Notes under the pieces: model-generated | Database searches by the model: none | What the model was told of the DNA's origin: nothing | What the model saw: the letters and a program-made list of their open reading frames with translations, nothing else | Source: Agromyces sp. G08B096 | Lineage (GTDB): Bacteria > Actinomycetota > Actinomycetes > Actinomycetales > Microbacteriaceae | Direction: 5' to 3' | Assembly (NCBI RefSeq): GCF_040267705.1 | Contig: NZ_CP158374.1 | Span: 2,852,001 to 2,916,000, forward strand | Length of the DNA: 64,000 bases | Shown: one piece after another, positions 3,480 to 26,454 of the stretch | Layout: every line of letters starts with the position of its first letter | Numbering within the stretch: position 1 is the first letter of the stretch | Program-made: the position numbers and the translations under genes

Positions 3480-3506
3480 TGTCACAGCCGGCGCACCGAC
3501 CCGGTC
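3480..3506 (+). promoter_or_regulatory. Candidate ECF41 sigma promoter
   Basis: TGTCACA at 3480-3486, 16 bases, then GGTC at 3503-3506 (context CCGGTCCTCGCTGAT). It matches the boxes at 21109, 22001 and 23874 in both elements and spacing, and lies about 70 bases before the alpha/beta hydrolase gene. Confidence 0.7.
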
Positions 3507-3574: not shown

Positions 3575-4549
3575 ATGACCGACCACATTCTCGAGCCCGC
3601 CGCGCAGGCGCTCGCCGACGCGACGGCCCAGCCGCCGTACTTCTACCAGATGACGCCGGACGAGGCCCGGAAGGTCCTCGACGACGTGCAGGCGGCACCC
3701 GTCCCCAAGGCGGAGGTCGACGAGCGCTGGGTGACCGTGCCCGCCGAGGTCGGCGACGTCCGGGTCCGCATCGTGACGCCCCCGGGTGCCCACGGGCCCC
3801 TGCCCGTCGTCCTGTACATCCACGGCGGCGGCTGGGTGCTCGGCAACGCCGGGACGCACGACCGTCTCGTGCGCGACTTGGCGACGGGTGCCGACGCGGC
3901 CGTCGCGTTCGTCGAGTACGACCGGTCGCCGGAGGCGCGCTATCCCGTGGCCATCGAGCAGGCGTACGCCGCGGCGCAGTGGATCACCCGGCACGGTGCC
4001 GACGAAGGGCTCGACGCCTCACGGCTCGCGGTCGCCGGTGACTCGGTCGGCGGCAACATGACCGCGGCCGTCGCCATCATGGCCAAGCAGCGCGGTGACG
4101 TGACGTTCGTGCACCAGTCGCTGTACTACCCGGTGACGGATGCCGCGCAGGACACCGACAGCTACCGCGAGTTCGCCGCCGGCCCGTTCCTGCTCGCCAA
4201 GAGCATGGCCTGGTTCTGGGACGCGTACCTGCCCGACCTCGACCGGCGGGCGGAGATCACCGCATCACCGCTCCGCGCGACGCTCGACGACCTCGCCGGG
4301 CTCCCCGACGCTTTCGTCGTCGTCGACGAGAACGACGTCCTCCGCGACGAGGGCGAGGCCTACGCGCGCAAGCTCACGGCCGCAGGCGTGCGCACCACGA
4401 GCATCCGCGTGAACGGCACGATCCACGACTTCATGATGCTGAACCCGCTGCGGGAGACCGCCGCGTCATCGGTCGCCGTCGAGCTCGCCGTGCACGAGCT
4501 GCGTGCGGCGTTCGAGCGGGCGGCGGAGCGGTCCGCCGCTGCGGCATGA
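3575..4549 (+). CDS. Alpha/beta hydrolase, HSL-like carboxylesterase
   Basis: A cytoplasmic esterase of 324 residues from the hormone-sensitive-lipase branch. The oxyanion-hole motif HGGG is at 83-86, the nucleophile Ser157 sits in GDSVGG, the likely acid is Asp254 in DENDVLRDEG, and the catalytic His284 is in GTIHDF. There is no signal peptide. The ATG at 3575 follows a good ribosome binding site (GGAAGGG). A TGTCACA-N16-GGTC promoter element upstream matches those before other genes in the window, so it is probably part of the same ECF41 sigma regulon even though it lies some 18 kb from the second sigma gene. The substrate is unknown. A strong hairpin follows the gene. Confidence 0.88.
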   Translation: MTDHILEPAAQALADATAQPPYFYQMTPDEARKVLDDVQAAPVPKAEVDERWVTVPAEVGDVRVRIVTPPGAHGPLPVVLYIHGGGWVLGNAGTHDRLVRDLATGADAAVAFVEYDRSPEARYPVAIEQAYAAAQWITRHGADEGLDASRLAVAGDSVGGNMTAAVAIMAKQRGDVTFVHQSLYYPVTDAAQDTDSYREFAAGPFLLAKSMAWFWDAYLPDLDRRAEITASPLRATLDDLAGLPDAFVVVDENDVLRDEGEAYARKLTAAGVRTTSIRVNGTIHDFMMLNPLRETAASSVAVELAVHELRAAFERAAERSAAAA

Positions 4550-8910: not shown

Positions 8911-9804
8911 TCAGCGCGCCAGCGCCGCCTCCTCGTCGAGCCAGCCGAGCTTGTTCGGGTTCGCGACGGAGAAGATGCGCGTGATGCGCCCGCCCTCGAT
9001 CACCACGCTCACGGCGCCGACGAGCTCGCCGCCGACCTCCGCGCGCACGGCCGGCTGCCCGTTGATCCACGCCGGCTGCGCGAGGAACGGGCGGTCGAGC
9101 TTCGCGAGCCCGCCGAGCAGGTACCGCGCCATCTTCTCCGCGCCCTCGATCGGCCGTCGTGCGGCACCCTTCACGAGCCCGCCGCCGTCGGCCACCGAGA
9201 CGACGTCGGGCGCGAGCACGTCCATCAGGCCCTGCATGTCGCCCGAGTTCACCGCCGCGACGAACTTCGCCACCACGGCCTCCTGCTCGGCGCGGTCGAC
9301 CGACACCCGCGGGCGACGAGCGGCCACGTGCTCCTTCGCGCGATGCGCGATCTGCCGGACGGCCGCCGGAGTCTTGCCGACCGCCTCCGCGATCTCGTCG
9401 TAGGGCACGTCGAACACCTCGCGCAGCACGAACACCGCCCGCTCGGCCGGCCCGAGGGTCTCCAGCACCGTCAGCATGGCGATCGACACGCTCTCGGCGA
9501 GCTCGACGTCGTCCGCGACATCCGGGCTCGTGAGCAGCGGCTCGGGCAGCCACTCGCCCACGTACTGCTCGCGGCGCCTCGCCTGCGAGCGGAGATGGTT
9601 CAGCGCCTGCCGCGTGACGATGCGCACGAGGTACGCGCGCGGGTCGCGCACGTCGGTGCGGTCGTCGGCGGCCCAGCGAAGCCACGACTCCTGCAGCACG
9701 TCCTCCGCGTCGGCGGCCGAGCCGAGCAGCTCGTACGCGACGGTGAAGAGCAGGTTGCGGTGCGTGACGAACGGGTCGCCTTCGAGGCCGGCGGGGCTCA
9801 TCAT
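8911..9804 (-). CDS. ECF41 family sigma factor (SigJ-like) with SnoaL-like C-terminus
   Basis: A 297-residue extracytoplasmic-function sigma factor. Region 2 covers about residues 11-78 (AEDVLQESWLRW, YLVRIVTRQALNHL), and region 4 about 108-163 (LGPAERAVFVLREVFDVPYDEIAEAVGKT). It shows the three marks of group ECF41: WLPEP in the linker (85-89), DGGG (206-209) and NPNKL (282-286, usually NPDKL) in a fused NTF2/SnoaL-like domain that replaces an anti-sigma factor and tunes activity. The ATG at 9804 overlaps the stop of the carboxymuconolactone-decarboxylase gene (ATGA), the classical ECF41 partner. The operon has a TGTCACA-type promoter, so autoregulation is likely. The inducing signal is not known. 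Confidence 0.92.
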   Translation of the reverse strand: MMSPAGLEGDPFVTHRNLLFTVAYELLGSAADAEDVLQESWLRWAADDRTDVRDPRAYLVRIVTRQALNHLRSQARRREQYVGEWLPEPLLTSPDVADDVELAESVSIAMLTVLETLGPAERAVFVLREVFDVPYDEIAEAVGKTPAAVRQIAHRAKEHVAARRPRVSVDRAEQEAVVAKFVAAVNSGDMQGLMDVLAPDVVSVADGGGLVKGAARRPIEGAEKMARYLLGGLAKLDRPFLAQPAWINGQPAVRAEVGGELVGAVSVVIEGGRITRIFSVANPNKLGWLDEEAALAR

Positions 9805-10403
9805 GCGATCGACCCTACGGCGGATGCCTCCTCGGCCGGCGCGGCGAGCGGCGGCAGACCGCAACTCGTGGCGAACTCCGCCGAGTGGATGCCGAGCGCC
9901 ACGTTCGACCGTGCGCTGAGGTTCATAACGCCGATCCGCGCGGTGAGCTCCAGCAGGGCCGCCTCCCCGAGGTCGCGGCGGAGCGCCTCGACGAGGTCGT
10001 CGGTGACGGCGACGGGCGTCTGGCTCATCCCGTTTGCGTACTCCATGACGCGCCGCTCGACGGGCGTGAACACGGATGACTCCCGCCACCTCGGCACCTC
10101 GCGCGCCTTGGCCTCGTCGAGGCCCCGGTTGTGGGCCATGAAGTAGTTGAGGTCGAGGCAGAAGCTGCAGCCGACCGCCGCTGCGGTCGCCATGTGCGCG
10201 AGCGAGGCGAGGTCCTCGTCGAGCTCGTGCCACTTCTCGACCTTGCGGTTGACGCCCATCAGGTCCATGAGCACCCGCTTGTTGTGCCACATCACGCCGA
10301 TCTGGTCGGGCACCTGTCCGAGCATCCGGTTCGCCACGAGCTTCACGAGGGTGCCGGTGAACCCGGTGACCCGGGCGGCGGGGATGCGTGCGATGTCGGT
10401 CAT
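9801..10403 (-). CDS. Carboxymuconolactone decarboxylase / AhpD-like protein
   Basis: A 200-residue protein of the CMD family with an AhpD-type redox core: GCSFCLDLNYFMAHNRG holds the CxxC pair and the downstream His of the thiol peroxidase motif. Upstream is LASLAHMATAAAV and downstream RVMEYANGMSQTP. Members reduce peroxides or decarboxylate lactones; the CxxC favours a peroxidase or disulfide reductase role. The ATG at 10403 gives the usual length. The gene is first in a two-gene operon with an ECF41 sigma factor and is preceded by a TGTCACA-N16-TGTC element. CMD genes are the commonest known genomic partners and targets of ECF41 sigma factors. Confidence 0.88.
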   Translation of the reverse strand: MTDIARIPAARVTGFTGTLVKLVANRMLGQVPDQIGVMWHNKRVLMDLMGVNRKVEKWHELDEDLASLAHMATAAAVGCSFCLDLNYFMAHNRGLDEAKAREVPRWRESSVFTPVERRVMEYANGMSQTPVAVTDDLVEALRRDLGEAALLELTARIGVMNLSARSNVALGIHSAEFATSCGLPPLAAPAEEASAVGSIA

Positions 10404-21108: not shown

Positions 21109-21135
21109 TGTCACAGCCGCGGCGGCCATCCGGTC
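21109..21135 (+). promoter_or_regulatory. Candidate ECF41 sigma promoter
   Basis: TGTCACA 21109-21115, 16 bases, GGTC 21132-21135 (context ATCCGGTCTGAGCTGAT), about 50 bases before the hydrolase at 21187. Confidence 0.75.
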
Positions 21136-21186
21136 TGAGCTGATCGGACGCCGCCCGCCGGTCGGCGCCATCGAGAGGGGAACATC

Positions 21187-21921
21187 ATGTCCGATCAGCC
21201 GACCGTCGTGCTCGTGCACGGCGCCTTCGCCGAGTCCGCCAGCTGGAACGGCGTCATCGAGCGTCTCTACGCCCAGGGCATCACGTCCGTCGCCGTCGCC
21301 AACCCGCTGCGCAGCCTCGCCGGCGACGCCGCGTACGTCCGCGACGTGCTCGCGACGATCGACGGGCCGGTCGTGCTCGTCGGCCACTCCTACGGCGGGC
21401 TCGTCATCAGCGAGGCCGCCGCCGGCGACGACCGGGTCGCTGCACTCGTCTACGTCGGCGCGTTCACGCCCGAGCCCGGTGACAGCGCCTTCTCGCTCTC
21501 GGCGAGCGAACCGGGCAGCACGCTGGGCGAAGCGCTCGACGCGCACCCGCTCTCCACGGGCGGCGTGGAGTTCGTCATCCGACGCGCGGTCTTCCGCGAC
21601 CAGTTCGCCGCCGACGTGGCGGCGCAGACCGCCGGCCTCATGGGCGCGACGCAGCGGCCCGTGACCGAGGCGGCGCTGAAGGACGCCGTGCAGGCGGCCG
21701 TCCCCGCCTGGAAGGACCGCCCGTCGTGGCACGTCTTCGGCGCTGAGGACCGCAACATCCCCGCCGCCGTGCTCCGGACCGGCGCGGCACGCGCGAACGC
21801 GCGGACCACCCGCGAGGTCGCCGGCGCGTCGCACGCCGTCGCCGTCTCGCAGCCCGGCGAAGTCGCCGCGGTCATCGCGGAGGCGGTGCGCGCGGTCGCC
21901 GAGGACGCGGCAGCCGCCTGA
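21187..21921 (+). CDS. Alpha/beta hydrolase, salicylate-esterase-like
   Basis: A small 244-residue hydrolase of the type with VVLVHGAFAESASW at the N-terminus and the nucleophile Ser in LVGHSYGGLV (about residues 63-72). The acid is probably in VFGAEDRNIP and the catalytic His in GASHAVAVSQP. There is no lid domain and no signal peptide. AGAGGGGAA-type ribosome binding site (GAGAGGGGAA) precedes the ATG. The ECF41-type promoter upstream and the sigma factor gene immediately downstream make it a likely target of that sigma factor. Substrate unknown. Confidence 0.88.
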   Translation: MSDQPTVVLVHGAFAESASWNGVIERLYAQGITSVAVANPLRSLAGDAAYVRDVLATIDGPVVLVGHSYGGLVISEAAAGDDRVAALVYVGAFTPEPGDSAFSLSASEPGSTLGEALDAHPLSTGGVEFVIRRAVFRDQFAADVAAQTAGLMGATQRPVTEAALKDAVQAAVPAWKDRPSWHVFGAEDRNIPAAVLRTGAARANARTTREVAGASHAVAVSQPGEVAAVIAEAVRAVAEDAAAA

Positions 21922-22000
21922 ACACCGGGCGACGCGGCGGACCGCCGCGGCGGGGGCGAGTATTCCTCCCGCCGCGGCATCCGCGTCGATTCGACGAACC

Positions 22001-22027
22001 TGTCACACATCGAGGGGGGATCCGGTC
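22001..22027 (+). promoter_or_regulatory. Candidate autoregulatory ECF41 promoter
   Basis: TGTCACA 22001-22007, 16 bases, GGTC 22024-22027 (context ATCCGGTCGGAG), 54 bases before the sigma factor ATG. Confidence 0.75.
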
Positions 22028-22080
22028 GGAGTGATCAGGAGGCCGGTGCGGCCTGCCCGGCCGACTGACAGGATCACCAC

Positions 22081-22956
22081 ATGGATGCGAACCTCGCCGA
22101 CGCGCTCACCGTCTTCACCGCGGTGCGCGGGCGCCTCTTCGGCATCGCGTACCGCATGCTCGGCAGCGCCACCGAGGCGGAGGATCTCGTCCAGGAGACC
22201 TGGGTCCGCTGGCAGGGCACCGACCGCGGCGCCGTGCAGGATCCGCCGGCGTTCCTCGCGACGACCACCACGAGGCTCGCCATCAACGCGCTGCAGTCGG
22301 CGCGCGTCCGCCGCGAGACCTACATCGGGCCGTGGCTCCCCGAACCGGTCGACACGAGCCAGGATCCGACGCTCGGCGCGGAACGAGCCGAGGCGCTCGG
22401 CTTCGCCGTGCTCACGATGCTCGAGCGGCTCACCCCGACGGAACGCGCCGCCTACGTGCTGCGGGAGGCCTTCGCCTACGACTACGCCCAGATCTCCGAG
22501 GTGGTGCAGCTCTCGGAGCCGGCCGTCCGTCAGCTCGTGAGCCGAGCCCGCAAGCACCTCGCCGGCGAGCGACGGCGCGAGGTCGGGCCCGGCGAACAGC
22601 AGCGCTTGCTCACCGCGTTCCTCGCCGCGGCCAAGACCGGCGACCTCGTGCAGCTCGAGCGCCTCTTCGCGGAGGACGTGGTGTCGTACTCCGACGGCGG
22701 CGGCAAGGTGCGGGCGTCGAAGTTCCCCGTGTTCGGCCGGCTCACCGTCGCGAGGTTCATCCACGCGTTCCACACGCACTTCTGGCAGGGCGTCGCCGAG
22801 ACGTTCACCGAGGTCAACGGGCAGCCGTCCGTCCTGCTGTCGAAGGACGGCACGACTTTCGCCGTGATCTCCCTCGTCGCCTCGGAACGAGGCATCGACC
22901 AAGTGCTCTGGATGATGAACCCCGACAAGCTCACCGTGATCTCCCGTGCCGCATGA
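22081..22956 (+). CDS. ECF41 family sigma factor (SigJ-like)
   Basis: A 291-residue sigma factor with region 2 (about 10-78: AEDLVQETWVRW, TTRLAINALQSARV), the linker motif WLPEP (85-89), region 4 (about 108-163: LTPTERAAYVLREAFAYDYAQISEVVQLSEPAVRQLVSRARKHL) and the fused SnoaL-like regulatory domain. DGGG (205-208) and NPDKL (280-284) mark group ECF41. Its own promoter carries TGTCACA-N16-GGTC, as do the hydrolase before it and the NAD-binding operon after it, so I infer autoregulation and a local regulon. A GTG start of a SnoaL-like small gene lies within its last codons. Confidence 0.94.
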   Translation: MDANLADALTVFTAVRGRLFGIAYRMLGSATEAEDLVQETWVRWQGTDRGAVQDPPAFLATTTTRLAINALQSARVRRETYIGPWLPEPVDTSQDPTLGAERAEALGFAVLTMLERLTPTERAAYVLREAFAYDYAQISEVVQLSEPAVRQLVSRARKHLAGERRREVGPGEQQRLLTAFLAAAKTGDLVQLERLFAEDVVSYSDGGGKVRASKFPVFGRLTVARFIHAFHTHFWQGVAETFTEVNGQPSVLLSKDGTTFAVISLVASERGIDQVLWMMNPDKLTVISRAA

Positions 22957-23323
22957 CGATCCCGCCGCCGCACTCATCGCCGCCGTCCGGCATCGCGACG
23001 AGGTGGCGCTCGCCCGGCTGCTGACCCCGCAGGTGCACCTCGTCGTCGACGCCGGCGACGCCACCGGCGTCGACGTCTACGGCCGGGCCGGAGTCATCCC
23101 GGCCCTCATGGCCCGGCTGCACCCGGAGCCCACGACGAGGCTGCTGCGCGTGCACGTGAACGGGGCCCCCGGCGTGGCGGCGCGCCGTGCGAACGGCGAG
23201 ATCGCCGCGGTCCTCGCGCTCGGCGAGTCGTCGGGCGAGGGCCGGCCGGTCGCGCAGCTCTGGCTCACCACGGCTCCGCGGAAGCTCGCGGCCTGGAACC
23301 GCCGGCGCCCCGAGCCCGACTGA
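22946..23323 (+). CDS. Stand-alone SnoaL/NTF2-like small protein
   Basis: A 125-residue protein whose GTG start overlaps the end of the sigma factor gene by 11 bases, so translation should be coupled. The sequence (AALIAAVRHRDEVALARLLTPQVHLVVDAGD, GRAGVIPALMARLHPEP, AARRANGEIAAVLALG) has the layout of a SnoaL/NTF2 fold and resembles the C-terminal domain of ECF41 sigma factors. It could modulate the sigma factor, for instance by competing with its own fused domain; this is inference. It is not a recognised anti-sigma family. Confidence 0.75.
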   Translation: MPHDDPAAALIAAVRHRDEVALARLLTPQVHLVVDAGDATGVDVYGRAGVIPALMARLHPEPTTRLLRVHVNGAPGVAARRANGEIAAVLALGESSGEGRPVAQLWLTTAPRKLAAWNRRRPEPD

Positions 23324-23356
23324 GGAGCCTGACCGACGCGCTGCGAGACTGGTGCC

Positions 23357-23890
23357 ATGCTCGACGCCCTCCAGCTTCCGGTCGCCCTCGACGCTCGCTC
23401 CGGACCCGTCCTCCTCCGCCGCGCCACCCGCGACGACCTCGACCAGCTCATGGCGCTGCTCGCCGACGACCCGGTGAGCGCCGCCCGCGGCGACGTCGCC
23501 GCGCCGGGCGACCTGCCCGCCTACCTCGCCGCACTCGAGGAGATCCTCGCCGACCAGGGCAACGACCTGCTCGTGGCCGACGACGCCGACGGCCGCCTCG
23601 TCGGCACCCTCCAGCTCACCCGCATCCCCGGCATGGCGCGACGCGGGAGCACCCGGCTGCTGGTCGAGGCCGTGCGGGTCCGCAGCGACGCCCGTTCGGC
23701 CGGCATCGGCGGCGCGATGATGCGCTGGGTCGTCGACGTCGCCGCCCCGGCCCTCGGCTCCGGGCTCGTCCAGCTCACCTCGGACGCCGCGCGCACCGAT
23801 GCGCACCGGTTCTACGAGCGGCTCGGGTTCGCGGCATCCCATGTCGGATTCAAACGACGGATTCCGGCGGCCCCGTCACAGACCGGCTGA
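23357..23890 (+). CDS. GNAT family N-acetyltransferase
   Basis: A 177-residue acetyl-CoA-dependent acetyltransferase. It starts with LLRRATRDDLDQLMALL; the acetyl-CoA binding loop follows the beta-strand LVEAVRVRSDARSAGIGGAMM (R/Q-x-x-G-x-G/A type), and the final motif is AHRFYERLGFAA. The gene sits 33 bases after the SnoaL-like gene and may belong to the sigma operon. The promoter for the next operon lies within its 3' end. The substrate is unknown. Confidence 0.88.
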   Translation: MLDALQLPVALDARSGPVLLRRATRDDLDQLMALLADDPVSAARGDVAAPGDLPAYLAALEEILADQGNDLLVADDADGRLVGTLQLTRIPGMARRGSTRLLVEAVRVRSDARSAGIGGAMMRWVVDVAAPALGSGLVQLTSDAARTDAHRFYERLGFAASHVGFKRRIPAAPSQTG

Positions 23891-23900
23891 GCATCCGGTC
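23874..23900 (+). promoter_or_regulatory. Candidate ECF41 sigma promoter
   Basis: CGTCACA 23874-23880 (one change from TGTCACA), 16 bases, GGTC 23897-23900 (context CATCCGGTCGGAGCT). It overlaps the end of the GNAT gene and lies 54 bases before the NAD-binding gene. Confidence 0.7.
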
Positions 23901-23953
23901 GGAGCTTCATGACGGCAGCGGAACCGCCGCGGCCCGGACGGAAGGCACCAGTC

Positions 23954-24715
23954 ATGAAGATCGTCGTCATCGGAGGCACCGGCCTCATCGGCTCCAAGGT
24001 CGTCTCGCTCCTCACCGAGCACGGGCACGAGGCCGTGGCCGCCTCGCCGAACTCGGGCGTGAACACGCTGACCGGCGAGGGCGTCGCCGAGGCGCTCCGC
24101 GGTGCCGACGTCGTCGTCGACGTCTCCAACTCGCCGTCGTTCGCCGACGCCGACGTGCTGGAGTTCTTCACGACCTCGACGTCGAACCTCATCGCCGCCG
24201 AGCGCGAGGCCGGGGTGCGGCTGCACGTCGCCCTCTCGGTCGTCGGCGCCGACCGGCTGCCCGACAGCGGCTACCTGCGCGCGAAGGTCGAGCAGGAGCG
24301 GCTCATCGCCGACTCGGGGCTGCCGTACACCATCGTTCGGGCCACGCAGTTCTTCGAGTTCGCGCTGCGGATCGCCGACGAGGCGACGGTCGACGGCGTC
24401 GCCCGTCTCTCGACCGGGCTGATGCAGCCGGTCGCCGCCGCCGACGTGTCGACCGCCGTCGCCCGTGCCGCCGGGTCGGGCGAGCCGGTGAACGGCATCG
24501 TCGAGATCGGCGGCCCCGAGCGGCTGCCCATGGCGGAGTTCATCGGCCGCGCACTGACAGCTCACGGTGACTCCCGCACCGTGATCGCCGACCCCGAGGC
24601 GCCGTACTTCGGCACGAAGCTCACGGGCGACGAGCTCACGCCCGGGCCCGACGCGCAGCAGGCGGCCACGACGTACGACGAGTGGCTCGCCGCGCAGCCG
24701 GCGACGGCCAGGTAG
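23954..24715 (+). CDS. NAD(P)-binding protein, NmrA/SDR-atypical type
   Basis: A 253-residue extended/atypical short-chain dehydrogenase. The Rossmann motif is KIVVIGGTGLIGSKVV, followed by VVVDVSNSPSF, HVALSVVGADRLPDSGYLRAKVEQE and PYTIVRATQFFEF. The YxxxK of catalytic SDRs is degenerate (GYLRAKV retains Y and K). ATG 23954 follows GGAAGG; an upstream ATG at 23909 right after the promoter is less likely. This is the first gene of a three-gene operon with its paralogue and an epoxide-hydrolase-like enzyme, under an ECF41-type promoter. Epimerase/oxidoreductase-like genes are known ECF41 partners. Confidence 0.88.
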   Translation: MKIVVIGGTGLIGSKVVSLLTEHGHEAVAASPNSGVNTLTGEGVAEALRGADVVVDVSNSPSFADADVLEFFTTSTSNLIAAEREAGVRLHVALSVVGADRLPDSGYLRAKVEQERLIADSGLPYTIVRATQFFEFALRIADEATVDGVARLSTGLMQPVAAADVSTAVARAAGSGEPVNGIVEIGGPERLPMAEFIGRALTAHGDSRTVIADPEAPYFGTKLTGDELTPGPDAQQAATTYDEWLAAQPATAR

Positions 24716-24721
24716 CCCGCC

Positions 24722-25519
24722 ATGCGCATCGCGGTCATCGGCGGCACCGGCCTCATCGGCACCCGCCTCGTCGCTCGCCTGCAGAGCGAGGGCCACGACG
24801 TCGTCGCCGCGTCCAGGGCGACCGGCGTCGACTCGTACACCGGCGAGGGCCTCGACGAGGCCCTCGCCGGCGCCGACGCGCTGGTCGACGTCTCGAACTC
24901 CGGCTACCTCGACGAGCGGGGCGCGAACGAGTTCTTCTACGCCTCCACGCTCAACCTCCTCACGTACGGCGCGGCGGCCGGGGTGCGGCACCACGTCGCA
25001 CTGTCGGTCGTGGGCACGGACCGGCTCGCCCGCAGCGAGGGCGGCTACTTCGCCGCGAAGGCCGCCCAGGAGAAGCTGATCCGCGAGTCGGGCCGGCCGT
25101 ACACGATCGTGCACGCCACCCAGTTCTTCGAGTTCATCCAGGCCATCGCCGACTCCGCGTCGGTGCGATACGTGGTGCGGCTCTCGAACGCGTTCTTCCA
25201 GCCGATGGCGGCCGACGACGTGGCGGCCGCGGTCGCGGGTACTGCTGTCGCCCCGCCCGCGAACGACGTCGTCGAGTTCGCCGGGCCGGAGCGCTTCCGC
25301 CTCGCCGAGCTCGTGCAGCGCGGCCTCCGGATCCGCCAGGATCCCCGAGAGGTCGTCGCCGATCCGCTCGCCGAGTACTTCGGCGCGCGGCTCGAGGAGG
25401 ACGAGCTGCTCCCCGGCCCCGCCGCCGCGCTCGCGCCGACCCGGTTCGCCGACTGGCTCGCGGCAGGTGCGGGATCCGCCGACTCCGGCCGTGCGCTCGG
25501 ACAGCGGGCCGTGTCGTGA
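24722..25519 (+). CDS. NAD(P)-binding protein, paralogue of the preceding gene
   Basis: A 265-residue protein colinear with its upstream neighbour: RIAVIGGTGLIGTRLV, VDVSNSGYLDE, HVALSVVGTDRL, GYFAAKAAQEKLI and PYTIVHATQFFEF. The two are clearly a tandem duplication separated by six bases. It ends in a longer C-terminal tail. The final TGA overlaps the GTG start of the next gene (GTGA). Substrate unknown; duplication suggests either a heterodimer or two related substrates. Confidence 0.88.
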   Translation: MRIAVIGGTGLIGTRLVARLQSEGHDVVAASRATGVDSYTGEGLDEALAGADALVDVSNSGYLDERGANEFFYASTLNLLTYGAAAGVRHHVALSVVGTDRLARSEGGYFAAKAAQEKLIRESGRPYTIVHATQFFEFIQAIADSASVRYVVRLSNAFFQPMAADDVAAAVAGTAVAPPANDVVEFAGPERFRLAELVQRGLRIRQDPREVVADPLAEYFGARLEEDELLPGPAAALAPTRFADWLAAGAGSADSGRALGQRAVS

Positions 25520-26454
25520 TCCCGAGCGCTTCGTCCGCCCGCCTGGGCCCTCTGCGTCGGGTCGAGGCGGGCCCCCTCGACGTCGCCTACGTCGAGGCGG
25601 GGCCGTCCGACGGGCCGGCGGTGCTGCTGCTGCACGGGTTCCCGTACGACATCCACAGCTATGTCGACGTCGTGCCGCGGCTCGCACAAGCGGGCCACCG
25701 CGTGATCGTGCCGCACCTGCGGGGGCACGGCGCGACCCGGTTCCTCGACCCGGATACGCCGAGGTCGGGTCAGCAGGCGGCGCTCGGGCGCGACGCCGTC
25801 GACCTCATGGACGCGCTCGGCCTCGACCGGGCCGTGCTCGCCGGCTACGACTGGGGCGGCCGCGCGGCCTGCGTCGCCGCCGCGCTCTGGCCCGACCGGG
25901 TCGAGGGCGTGGTCAGCGTCAACGGCTACCTCATCCAGGACATCCGGGCGTCGGCTGAGCCGCTCCGCCCCGAACTGGAGGCGGGCTTCTGGTATTTCTT
26001 CTACTTCCTCACCGAGCGCGGTCGCGCCGGCCTCGCCGCCGACCCGCGCGGCATCGCCGAGGTGATCTGGCGCCGCAACTCGCCTGAGTGGCGCTTCGAC
26101 GCGGGCGAGCTCGATCGAGCCGCCGAGGCGTTCCGGAACCCCGACTACGTCGACGTCGTGATTCACTCGTACCGGCACCGGCTGGGCCGGGCCGAGGGCG
26201 CTCCCGAGTACCGAGACCTCGAGGCTGCGCTCGCGGAGCTGCCGCCGGTGCCCGTGCCGGCCGTCACGCTCGACGGGCTCGCCGACGGCAACTTCCCGGC
26301 GACGGATGCCGCCGCGAGCGCGACGCACTTCACCGGACCGCGGGTGCACCGGCACGTGCCGCACGCCGGGCATCACCTTCCTCGTGAAGCGCCTGCGGCG
26401 TTCGCCGACGCGGTGCTGGAGGTGGGTGCGCTCGCGCGGGCCGATCGCCGCTAG
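25516..26454 (+). CDS. Alpha/beta hydrolase, epoxide hydrolase / dehalogenase-like
   Basis: A 312-residue hydrolase. VLLLHGFPYDIHSY holds the oxyanion hole. The nucleophile is Asp in LAGYDWGGRAA rather than Ser, the mark of epoxide hydrolases and haloalkane dehalogenases. The catalytic His is in VPHAGHHLPREAP. The cap domain lies between (about 130-230, with GFWYFFYFLTERGRAGLA). The GTG start overlaps the previous stop by four bases and ends in a shared CTAG with the convergent membrane protein gene. Third gene of the likely ECF41-controlled operon. Confidence 0.87.
   Translation: MIPSASSARLGPLRRVEAGPLDVAYVEAGPSDGPAVLLLHGFPYDIHSYVDVVPRLAQAGHRVIVPHLRGHGATRFLDPDTPRSGQQAALGRDAVDLMDALGLDRAVLAGYDWGGRAACVAAALWPDRVEGVVSVNGYLIQDIRASAEPLRPELEAGFWYFFYFLTERGRAGLAADPRGIAEVIWRRNSPEWRFDAGELDRAAEAFRNPDYVDVVIHSYRHRLGRAEGAPEYRDLEAALAELPPVPVPAVTLDGLADGNFPATDAAASATHFTGPRVHRHVPHAGHHLPREAPAAFADAVLEVGALARADRR

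Follow-up and report, generated by a model that had tools for sequence, protein, structure and literature searches.

Extracytoplasmic function (ECF) sigma factors of the ECF41 group have been described as those in which a fused C-terminal domain takes the place of a partner protein. In the published accounts this tail has two effects, both exerted through contacts with the linker motif: it restrains the sigma factor, and the activity of the sigma factor partly depends on it (PMC3426412, PMC8999054, PMC7730460). Each such sigma factor as a rule controls one gene or operon (Wecke et al. 2012, PMC3426412). Genes for hypothetical proteins are mentioned beside ECF41 genes in the same work (Wecke et al. 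2012, PMC3426412), and these could include free tail domains. Here we analyze a stretch of 64,000 nucleotides (nt) from Agromyces sp. G08B096 (contig NZ_CP158374.1, positions 2,852,001 to 2,916,000; hereafter the window), in which an ECF41 sigma gene (22081-22956, plus strand) is overlapped at its end by a gene for a free-standing copy of such a tail (22946-23323, plus strand). We propose that the locus encodes a self-regulated ECF41 system whose local regulon comprises five promoters or more and, in addition, a partner protein that acts on the adjacent sigma factor, a reading to which we assign a probability of about 0.57.

An ECF41 sigma gene and an overlapping tail-domain gene

The first-pass annotation had placed the product of the gene at 22081 in ECF41, and the assignment held: it scores 337.4 bits against TIGR02957 (cut-off 323.25), its Pfam sigma regions 2 and 4 are both over their cut-offs, and the alignment contains the WLPEP, DGGG and NPDKL signature motifs. 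The C-terminal part is a fused NTF2/SnoaL-like tail, and the best PDB chain for the protein is that of SigJ (5xe7). The neighborhood is of the ECF41 kind as well, with two NAD_binding_10/NmrA genes behind a promoter box. When the locus is compared with the ECF41 promoter TGTCACA-N16-CGTC, the -35 element and the spacer agree, and the -10 element is GGTC rather than CGTC. ECF41 sigma genes are described as lacking a partner gene, whereas here the sigma stop codon lies within a gene for a free tail domain.

This gene, which was missed in the first-pass annotation, has a GTG start codon 10 nt ahead of the final base of the sigma gene's stop codon and encodes 125 amino acids. Adjacent to the sigma gene and overlapping it, it has the gene order expected of an anti-sigma gene. 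Its product matches residues 176-290 of the SigJ model, which constitute the tail (E 6.5e-7), and its NCBIfam matches are to ECF41/SigJ sigma models only, and there only to their tails. No Pfam family matches it at 1e-3, and one of its orthologues (L019) scores 16.5 bits against SnoaL_2, short of the gathering score of 27. A profile built from nine partner orthologues, which lie behind orthologous sigma genes, also has SigJ as its best PDB chain (E 2.4e-4, tail part only). The AlphaFold2 model of the partner (predicted local distance difference test score (pLDDT) 89.4, predicted template modeling score (pTM) 0.82) has a predicted NTF2-like fold, and a Foldseek search with this model returned NTF2/SnoaL-like structures that include SigG1 and SigJ (E 5e-5 to 7e-4, TM-scores 0.4-0.6).

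In a literature search that did not cover the main reclassification (Casas-Pastor 2021), we found no description of a co-encoded free ECF41 tail domain. An ECF41 system with such a domain is what appears to be new here.

Promoter boxes at the locus and in the genome

Boxes ahead of a hydrolase gene, the sigma gene and an NmrA operon had been taken in the first-pass annotation as a three-promoter local regulon. The three are present as reported, each with (T/C)GTCACA, a 16-base spacer and GGTC, and in all of them the agreement runs on as ATCCGGTC-N-GAG. The boxes at 21109-21135 and 22001-22027 read TGTCACA-N16-GGTC and stand before the alpha/beta hydrolase gene at 21187-21921 (Pfam Abhydrolase_6) and before the sigma gene itself, where the box points to self-regulation; the third, at 23874-23900, reads CGTCACA-N16-GGTC, and all boxes and genes named here are on the plus strand. 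In the window as a whole, 4 copies of GTCACA-N14-18-GGTC were counted where 0.89 would be expected, and none of 100 shuffles had as many.

Across the genome (3,593,141 bases in one contig), the extended form GTCACA-N12-ATCCGGTC had five matches with at most one mismatch, and its reversed control pattern had none. The boxes at 21109 (no mismatch), 22001 and 23874 are among these matches. A further box lies at 3480-3506 (TGTCACA-N16-GGTC, 1 mismatch to the extended form), 68 bases 5' of an alpha/beta hydrolase gene (3575-4549, Pfam Abhydrolase_3), and the fifth is at genome position 2840454, ahead of a short-chain dehydrogenase/reductase (SDR) gene and 11.5 kb before the window start. All five extended-form boxes fall inside 35 kb; the many equally good boxes elsewhere that would speak against a local regulon were not found by this genome-wide search. 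What had been claimed thus stands for the boxes before the sigma gene and its neighbors, but the count of three was incomplete, as there are at least five. The targets also belong, as had been stated, to the usual ECF41 kind, namely hydrolases and NmrA oxidoreductases. As a prediction, a local ECF41 regulon that has several promoters and regulates itself finds good support in these sequences.

A looser pattern, NGTCACA-N15-17-NGTY, has 27 matches in the genome against 11 for its reversed control, so that further weak regulon members are possible. Six other matches to this pattern were inspected for gene starts: one is a GNAT-like candidate, one is lipoprotein-like, and four (L170-L173) were judged unlikely without a formal test. 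The GNAT-like case is a TGTCACA-N16-GGTC box outside the window (genome position 2928557, minus strand, locus L005), about 135 bases 5' of a gene matching Acetyltransf_CG; because the start peptide of this gene resembles those of box-preceded genes in the relatives' loci L160 and L163, it may be a further regulon member. The match at 2312994 (spacer 17) is 52 bases 5' of the lipoprotein-like frame. Allowing up to three mismatches in the genome scan gave at least 306 matches against 65 for the reversed control, which was too loose for use.

The NmrA operon behind the box at 23874 consists of two NmrA/NAD(P)-binding oxidoreductase genes (23954-24715 and 24722-25519, both with Pfam NAD_binding_10 and NmrA) and of an alpha/beta hydrolase gene resembling those for haloalkane dehalogenases and epoxide hydrolases (25516-26454, Pfam Abhydrolase_1), which overlaps the preceding gene by 4 nt. 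Between the partner gene and this operon is a GNAT acetyltransferase gene (23357-23890, Pfam Acetyltransf_1), and the start of the box falls within the 3' end of that gene. In four relatives' loci (L159, L160, L166 and L167) the NmrA box follows the partner frame at a distance of about 60 bases or less, which is too short to accommodate a GNAT gene.

Boxes and the -10 element in relatives

To these data we added 12 wider stretches (11 of 19 kb and one of 11 kb, 220,135 bp in total) taken around the sigma-partner pairs of relatives. They contain 54 boxes of the form NGTCACA-N16-NGTC, 45 of them with GGTC and 9 with TGTC. On the same sequence, 179 permuted -35 motifs gave a mean of 1.63 (maximum 14) and 30 dinucleotide shuffles a mean of 2.87 (maximum 6). 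The other spacers from 10 to 23 had 0-3 matches each, save spacer 11 with 10; eight of those ten proved to be spacer-16 boxes detected a second time by way of GTCCGGTC or GTCTTGTC. The 8 window matches of one permuted motif were scattered and did not form a repeat.

Genes behind the boxes in the ten stretches of our locus's own clade (L158-L167) were judged from their start peptides, some in a shifted frame, and the L166 sigma gene from its position. On this basis a box precedes the orthologous sigma gene in 9/10 stretches, the NmrA gene in 9/10, the Abhydrolase_3 gene (start peptide as in the gene at 3575) in 7/10 and the first hydrolase gene (start peptide as in 21187) in 6/10. The presence of boxes before the same gene types in relatives indicates that the regulon exceeds three promoters and is conserved. 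Set against the single-target rule given for the group (PMC3426412), at least five boxes make this locus and its relatives look different, which suggests that ECF41 regulons may have several conserved promoters and not one.

A broader sample was obtained from a search with the sigma alignment, as the best 80 of at least 592 candidate stretches, mostly from Actinomycetota. In these 80 loci, 249 occurrences of NGTCACA were counted at spacer 16, 103 of which have NGTC 16 bases on; spacers 12-15 and 17-20 had 2 to 6 boxes each. The -10 element among the 103 is GGTC in 67, TGTC in 30, CGTC in 4 and AGTC in 2. We therefore no longer hold the earlier suggestion that GGTC is a lineage-specific variant: it is the commonest form in the relatives, and G or T at that base is the rule among them. 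The G and T forms co-occur within single loci.

Some of these loci also have boxes before other genes. In L160 (7167, minus strand), L161 (13742, plus strand) and L163 (7680, minus strand) they stand ahead of genes with a IVGGGYAGFYTAWKLEKKL-like start, whose products resemble NADH dehydrogenase-type flavoproteins. Close relatives of the sigma factor are found in other phyla as well, in Nannocystis (L112, 59% identity) and in an Acidobacteria metagenome-assembled genome (L099, 61%), with GGTC boxes in the locus. Horizontal transfer is possible in both cases.

Distribution and co-inheritance of the partner

A clear free-standing relative of the partner (E <= 1.1e-13, frame of 122-143 amino acids) is present in 9 of 299 genomes of the family, our own included. 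All ten orthologous sigma genes with at least 68% identity in these 299 genomes have the partner directly behind them, and 18 of the 30 family sigma loci returned have a partner. In the sample of 80 loci, a partner-type gene without a normal sigma core is found in 17. It is directly downstream on the same strand in 12 of these (Acrocarpospora, two Nonomuraea, Paractinoplanes, Saccharothrix, Kribbella and six Microbacterium records), and in the remaining five it lies just upstream (L100), more than 1 kb downstream (L082) or on the opposite strand (L105, L122 and L124).

In all 11 loci of this clade the partner gene begins 10 or 13 nt ahead of the point where the sigma stop codon ends, and in 10 of 21 other pairs a possible start lies 3 nt ahead of that point (ATGA/GTGA); the first start is found 47 nt (L120) and 136 nt (L084) behind the stop in two loci. 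Across 32 adjacent pairs the distances among sigma cores and among partners are correlated (Mantel r 0.534), with 0 of 9999 permutations as high. Leaving out the 11 pairs of this clade gave r 0.506 and taking them alone gave r 0.815, again with no permutation as high.

Partner genes show fewer nonsynonymous than synonymous substitutions per site (dN < dS) in 5/5 pairs, the values for the nearest pair being 0.15 and 0.52. Among residues shared with fused tails, D35, G37, G46, N72, G73, K113 and L114 are kept in 11/11 partners of the clade; in the NPDKL motif, K and L are present in all 11 and P in 10, with A, S or V in the place of N.

Three of the relatives' loci (L161, 7425-7943, plus strand; L163, 7714-8232, minus strand; L160, 7202-7657, minus strand) also encode a free-standing tail-domain protein of a second type, and in L161 and L163 its gene has an ECF41-type box of its own just upstream; some minus-strand coordinates of relatives' loci are in reverse-complement numbering.

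Origin of the partner

Second ECF41 sigma genes in relatives' loci grade from intact to strongly reduced. The second sigma factor of L042, whose gene overlaps the first, is intact, with both sigma domains over the Pfam cut-offs, and in a careful tree of 57 rows it groups with the free domains (16 rows, 99/92). That of L187 has region 4 barely over the cut-off, a weak region 2 and WLPEP, and in L124 region 4 is just over and region 2 just under. L189 has kept region 4 and lost WLPEP, with no region 2 seen by Pfam; in L084 and L120 Pfam finds region 2 just short of the cut-off and does not find region 4; and in L105 it finds region 4 below the cut-off and does not find region 2. Loss from a complete sigma factor is the best explanation for such remnants.

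A larger tail-domain tree of 179 rows, many of whose forks are weak, contains 41 rows without a normal sigma core, although one of them (L062) is probably a frameshifted ordinary sigma factor and 40 is the safer count. All 41 sit in a 55-row set (Shimodaira-Hasegawa-like approximate likelihood ratio test 80) whose 14 further members are other ECF41 tails, and 0/41 are in the starred set of 79 rows to which the tails of the adjacent sigma factors belong. The free forms require at least six changes on this tree, and the starred branches force one; the sigma core may have been lost once or several times. The A/B sigma labels in the tree rest on a single motif and are rough; in the same tree, the sigma factor of the family member L061 pairs with Microbacterium L102, which is our ground for taking the family of the 299 genomes as probably Microbacteriaceae.

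We also considered, and rejected, an origin of the partner by duplication of the adjacent sigma factor's tail. In the 57-row tree this clade's 11 free domains come together (100/99), and grouping them with the 11 tails of their own sigma factors gave p 3.6e-5 in the approximately unbiased (AU) test; a single clade of all partners was not rejected on that tree (AU p 0.477). When the genome was searched with the partner, the tail of its third ECF41-type sigma factor was found at E 5.5e-6, and the tail of the adjacent one was not found at E <= 1. This third sigma gene (genome 2798174-2799073, plus strand, locus L009, outside the window) is divergent from an NmrA-like frame, and its product ends in NPEKLRRWNR and has a tail 37% identical to the partner, closer than that of the sigma factor at 22081.

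To judge from sequence and trees, the partner most likely arose from a tandem second ECF41 sigma factor that was stripped of its RNA polymerase- and DNA-binding domains. More tentatively, and with slightly less than even confidence, we suggest that this has happened beside actinobacterial ECF41 sigma factors by more than one path, through loss of sigma2, sigma4 or both, and that the tail was left as a gene-coupled subunit that would control the surviving sigma factor: an anti-sigma (or co-sigma) factor being born.

A partner proposed to act on the sigma factor, and other explanations

In the mechanism that we favor, the sigma factor is predicted to start transcription at the TGTCACA-N16-GGTC boxes of its own gene, the hydrolase genes and the NmrA/SDR oxidoreductase genes. 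The free domain would bind the adjacent sigma factor and set how active it is, in the manner of a soluble subunit that either resembles an anti-sigma factor or senses a ligand. Binding would probably take place at or against the site in the sigma2-sigma4 linker that the fused tail uses, or through pairing with the fused tail itself. Possible routes in trans are competition for the linker, pairing with the fused tail, or the bringing in of a second ligand pocket. Transcription by this sigma factor, binding by the partner, the direction of control and the ligand are all things that we infer. The conserved tail residues and the position at the end of the sigma gene leave the free domain well placed for action in trans, and since relatives kept the tail while losing sigma2, sigma4 or both, we argue that the tail is the useful part.

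Several observations weigh against a partner of this kind. The tail of the sigma factor is intact, so that on current models a partner is unnecessary, and ECF41 activity was seen in B. subtilis without one (Wecke et al. 2012, PMC3426412). There is no partner inside the 1.5-kb flank at 12 of the 30 family sigma loci, or in the stretch at 63 of the 80 relatives' loci. The partner evolves faster than the sigma factor, in this clade its DGGG and NPDKL motifs are partly lost, and host phylogeny alone could explain its co-variation with the sigma factor. The structure model of the sigma factor (pLDDT 70, linker below 50) is too poor for mapping a docking site.

The fused tail might instead be the sole regulator of an ordinary ECF41 system, with the free domain being a SnoaL-like enzyme or a ligand-binding protein of the operon's metabolic output. 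Its fold is common to SnoaL-like and ketosteroid isomerase-like enzymes, the neighboring genes do encode enzymes, and published ECF41 sigma factors function without a partner (PMC3426412). We nevertheless consider such a role unlikely, because the family matches of the domain are confined to sigma-model tails, its gene adjoins the sigma gene and not the enzyme genes, and the same domain lineage is joined to sigma remnants in relatives. Those remnants, the fast change of the partner and the many related sigma factors without one would also fit a functionless leftover of a decayed tandem sigma gene, retained through its coupling to the intact one. A leftover would hardly be expected to keep an open frame, a predicted NTF2-like fold and invariant motif residues in all 11 members of the clade, to have dN below dS in every pair compared, and to be co-inherited across several genera, and we regard this as the least probable of the explanations considered.

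It may also be asked whether the boxes belong, wholly or in part, to another sigma factor of the same genome, so that the regulon is shared. Three ECF41-type sigma factors match TIGR02957 (two over the cut-off, the remaining one split into two pieces): the one at 22081, the third one introduced above, and a second in the window (8914-9795, minus strand), which lies behind a carboxymuconolactone decarboxylase (CMD) gene (9801-10403, minus strand) in the classical COE-ECF41 layout. The box of this CMD operon (10473-10447, minus strand), TGTCACA-N16-TGTC, has an identical -35 element and spacer, but it ends in TGTC where the five others end in CCGGTC. Since relatives can have the G form and the T form in one locus, this base does not prove a separation of the sigma factors. 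Such boxes precede orthologues of the 22081 sigma gene in 9/10 relatives' stretches, and a shared regulon seems to us distinctly improbable. A partner that acts on the adjacent sigma factor remains the explanation we prefer.

Comparison with known systems

A conserved, co-encoded free copy of the tail would give a handle on the regulation of ECF41 sigma factors and on the signal to which they respond. The graded, half-lost sigma factors would be natural intermediates for the origin of anti-sigma or accessory sigma proteins, and a decayed sister switch hints at how sigma switches may gain partner proteins.

Much at this locus is shared with the ECF41 systems of B. licheniformis and R. sphaeroides as described in PMC3426412: a sigma2-sigma4 core with a fused tail, a WLPEP linker, oxidoreductase-type neighbors, a TGTCACA -35 element and a 16-base spacer. 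It differs from them in having GGTC where they have CGTC or TGTT as the -10 element, at least five boxes against their one target, and a free tail-domain gene (PMC3426412). In the ECF56 pair SigG1-RsfG of Streptomyces tsukubaensis, an ECF sigma factor with a SnoaL_2 tail is likewise followed by a downstream partner, which there is co-transcribed and has been shown to bind the sigma factor (PMC7730460). Unlike the system described here, SigG1 is without NPDKL, and RsfG is described as being without a conserved Pfam domain (PMC7730460). SigJ of M. tuberculosis (PDB 5xe7), the nearest solved chain for the sigma factor and, in its tail part only, for the partner profile too, represents the fused form only, against the free domain at this locus. 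In the sigma mimicry of PhyR, a sigma-derived domain has been reused as a regulator, and PhyR retains a sigma-like core that binds the anti-sigma factor. Here the converse appears to have taken place: the sigma core was lost, and the regulatory tail was retained.

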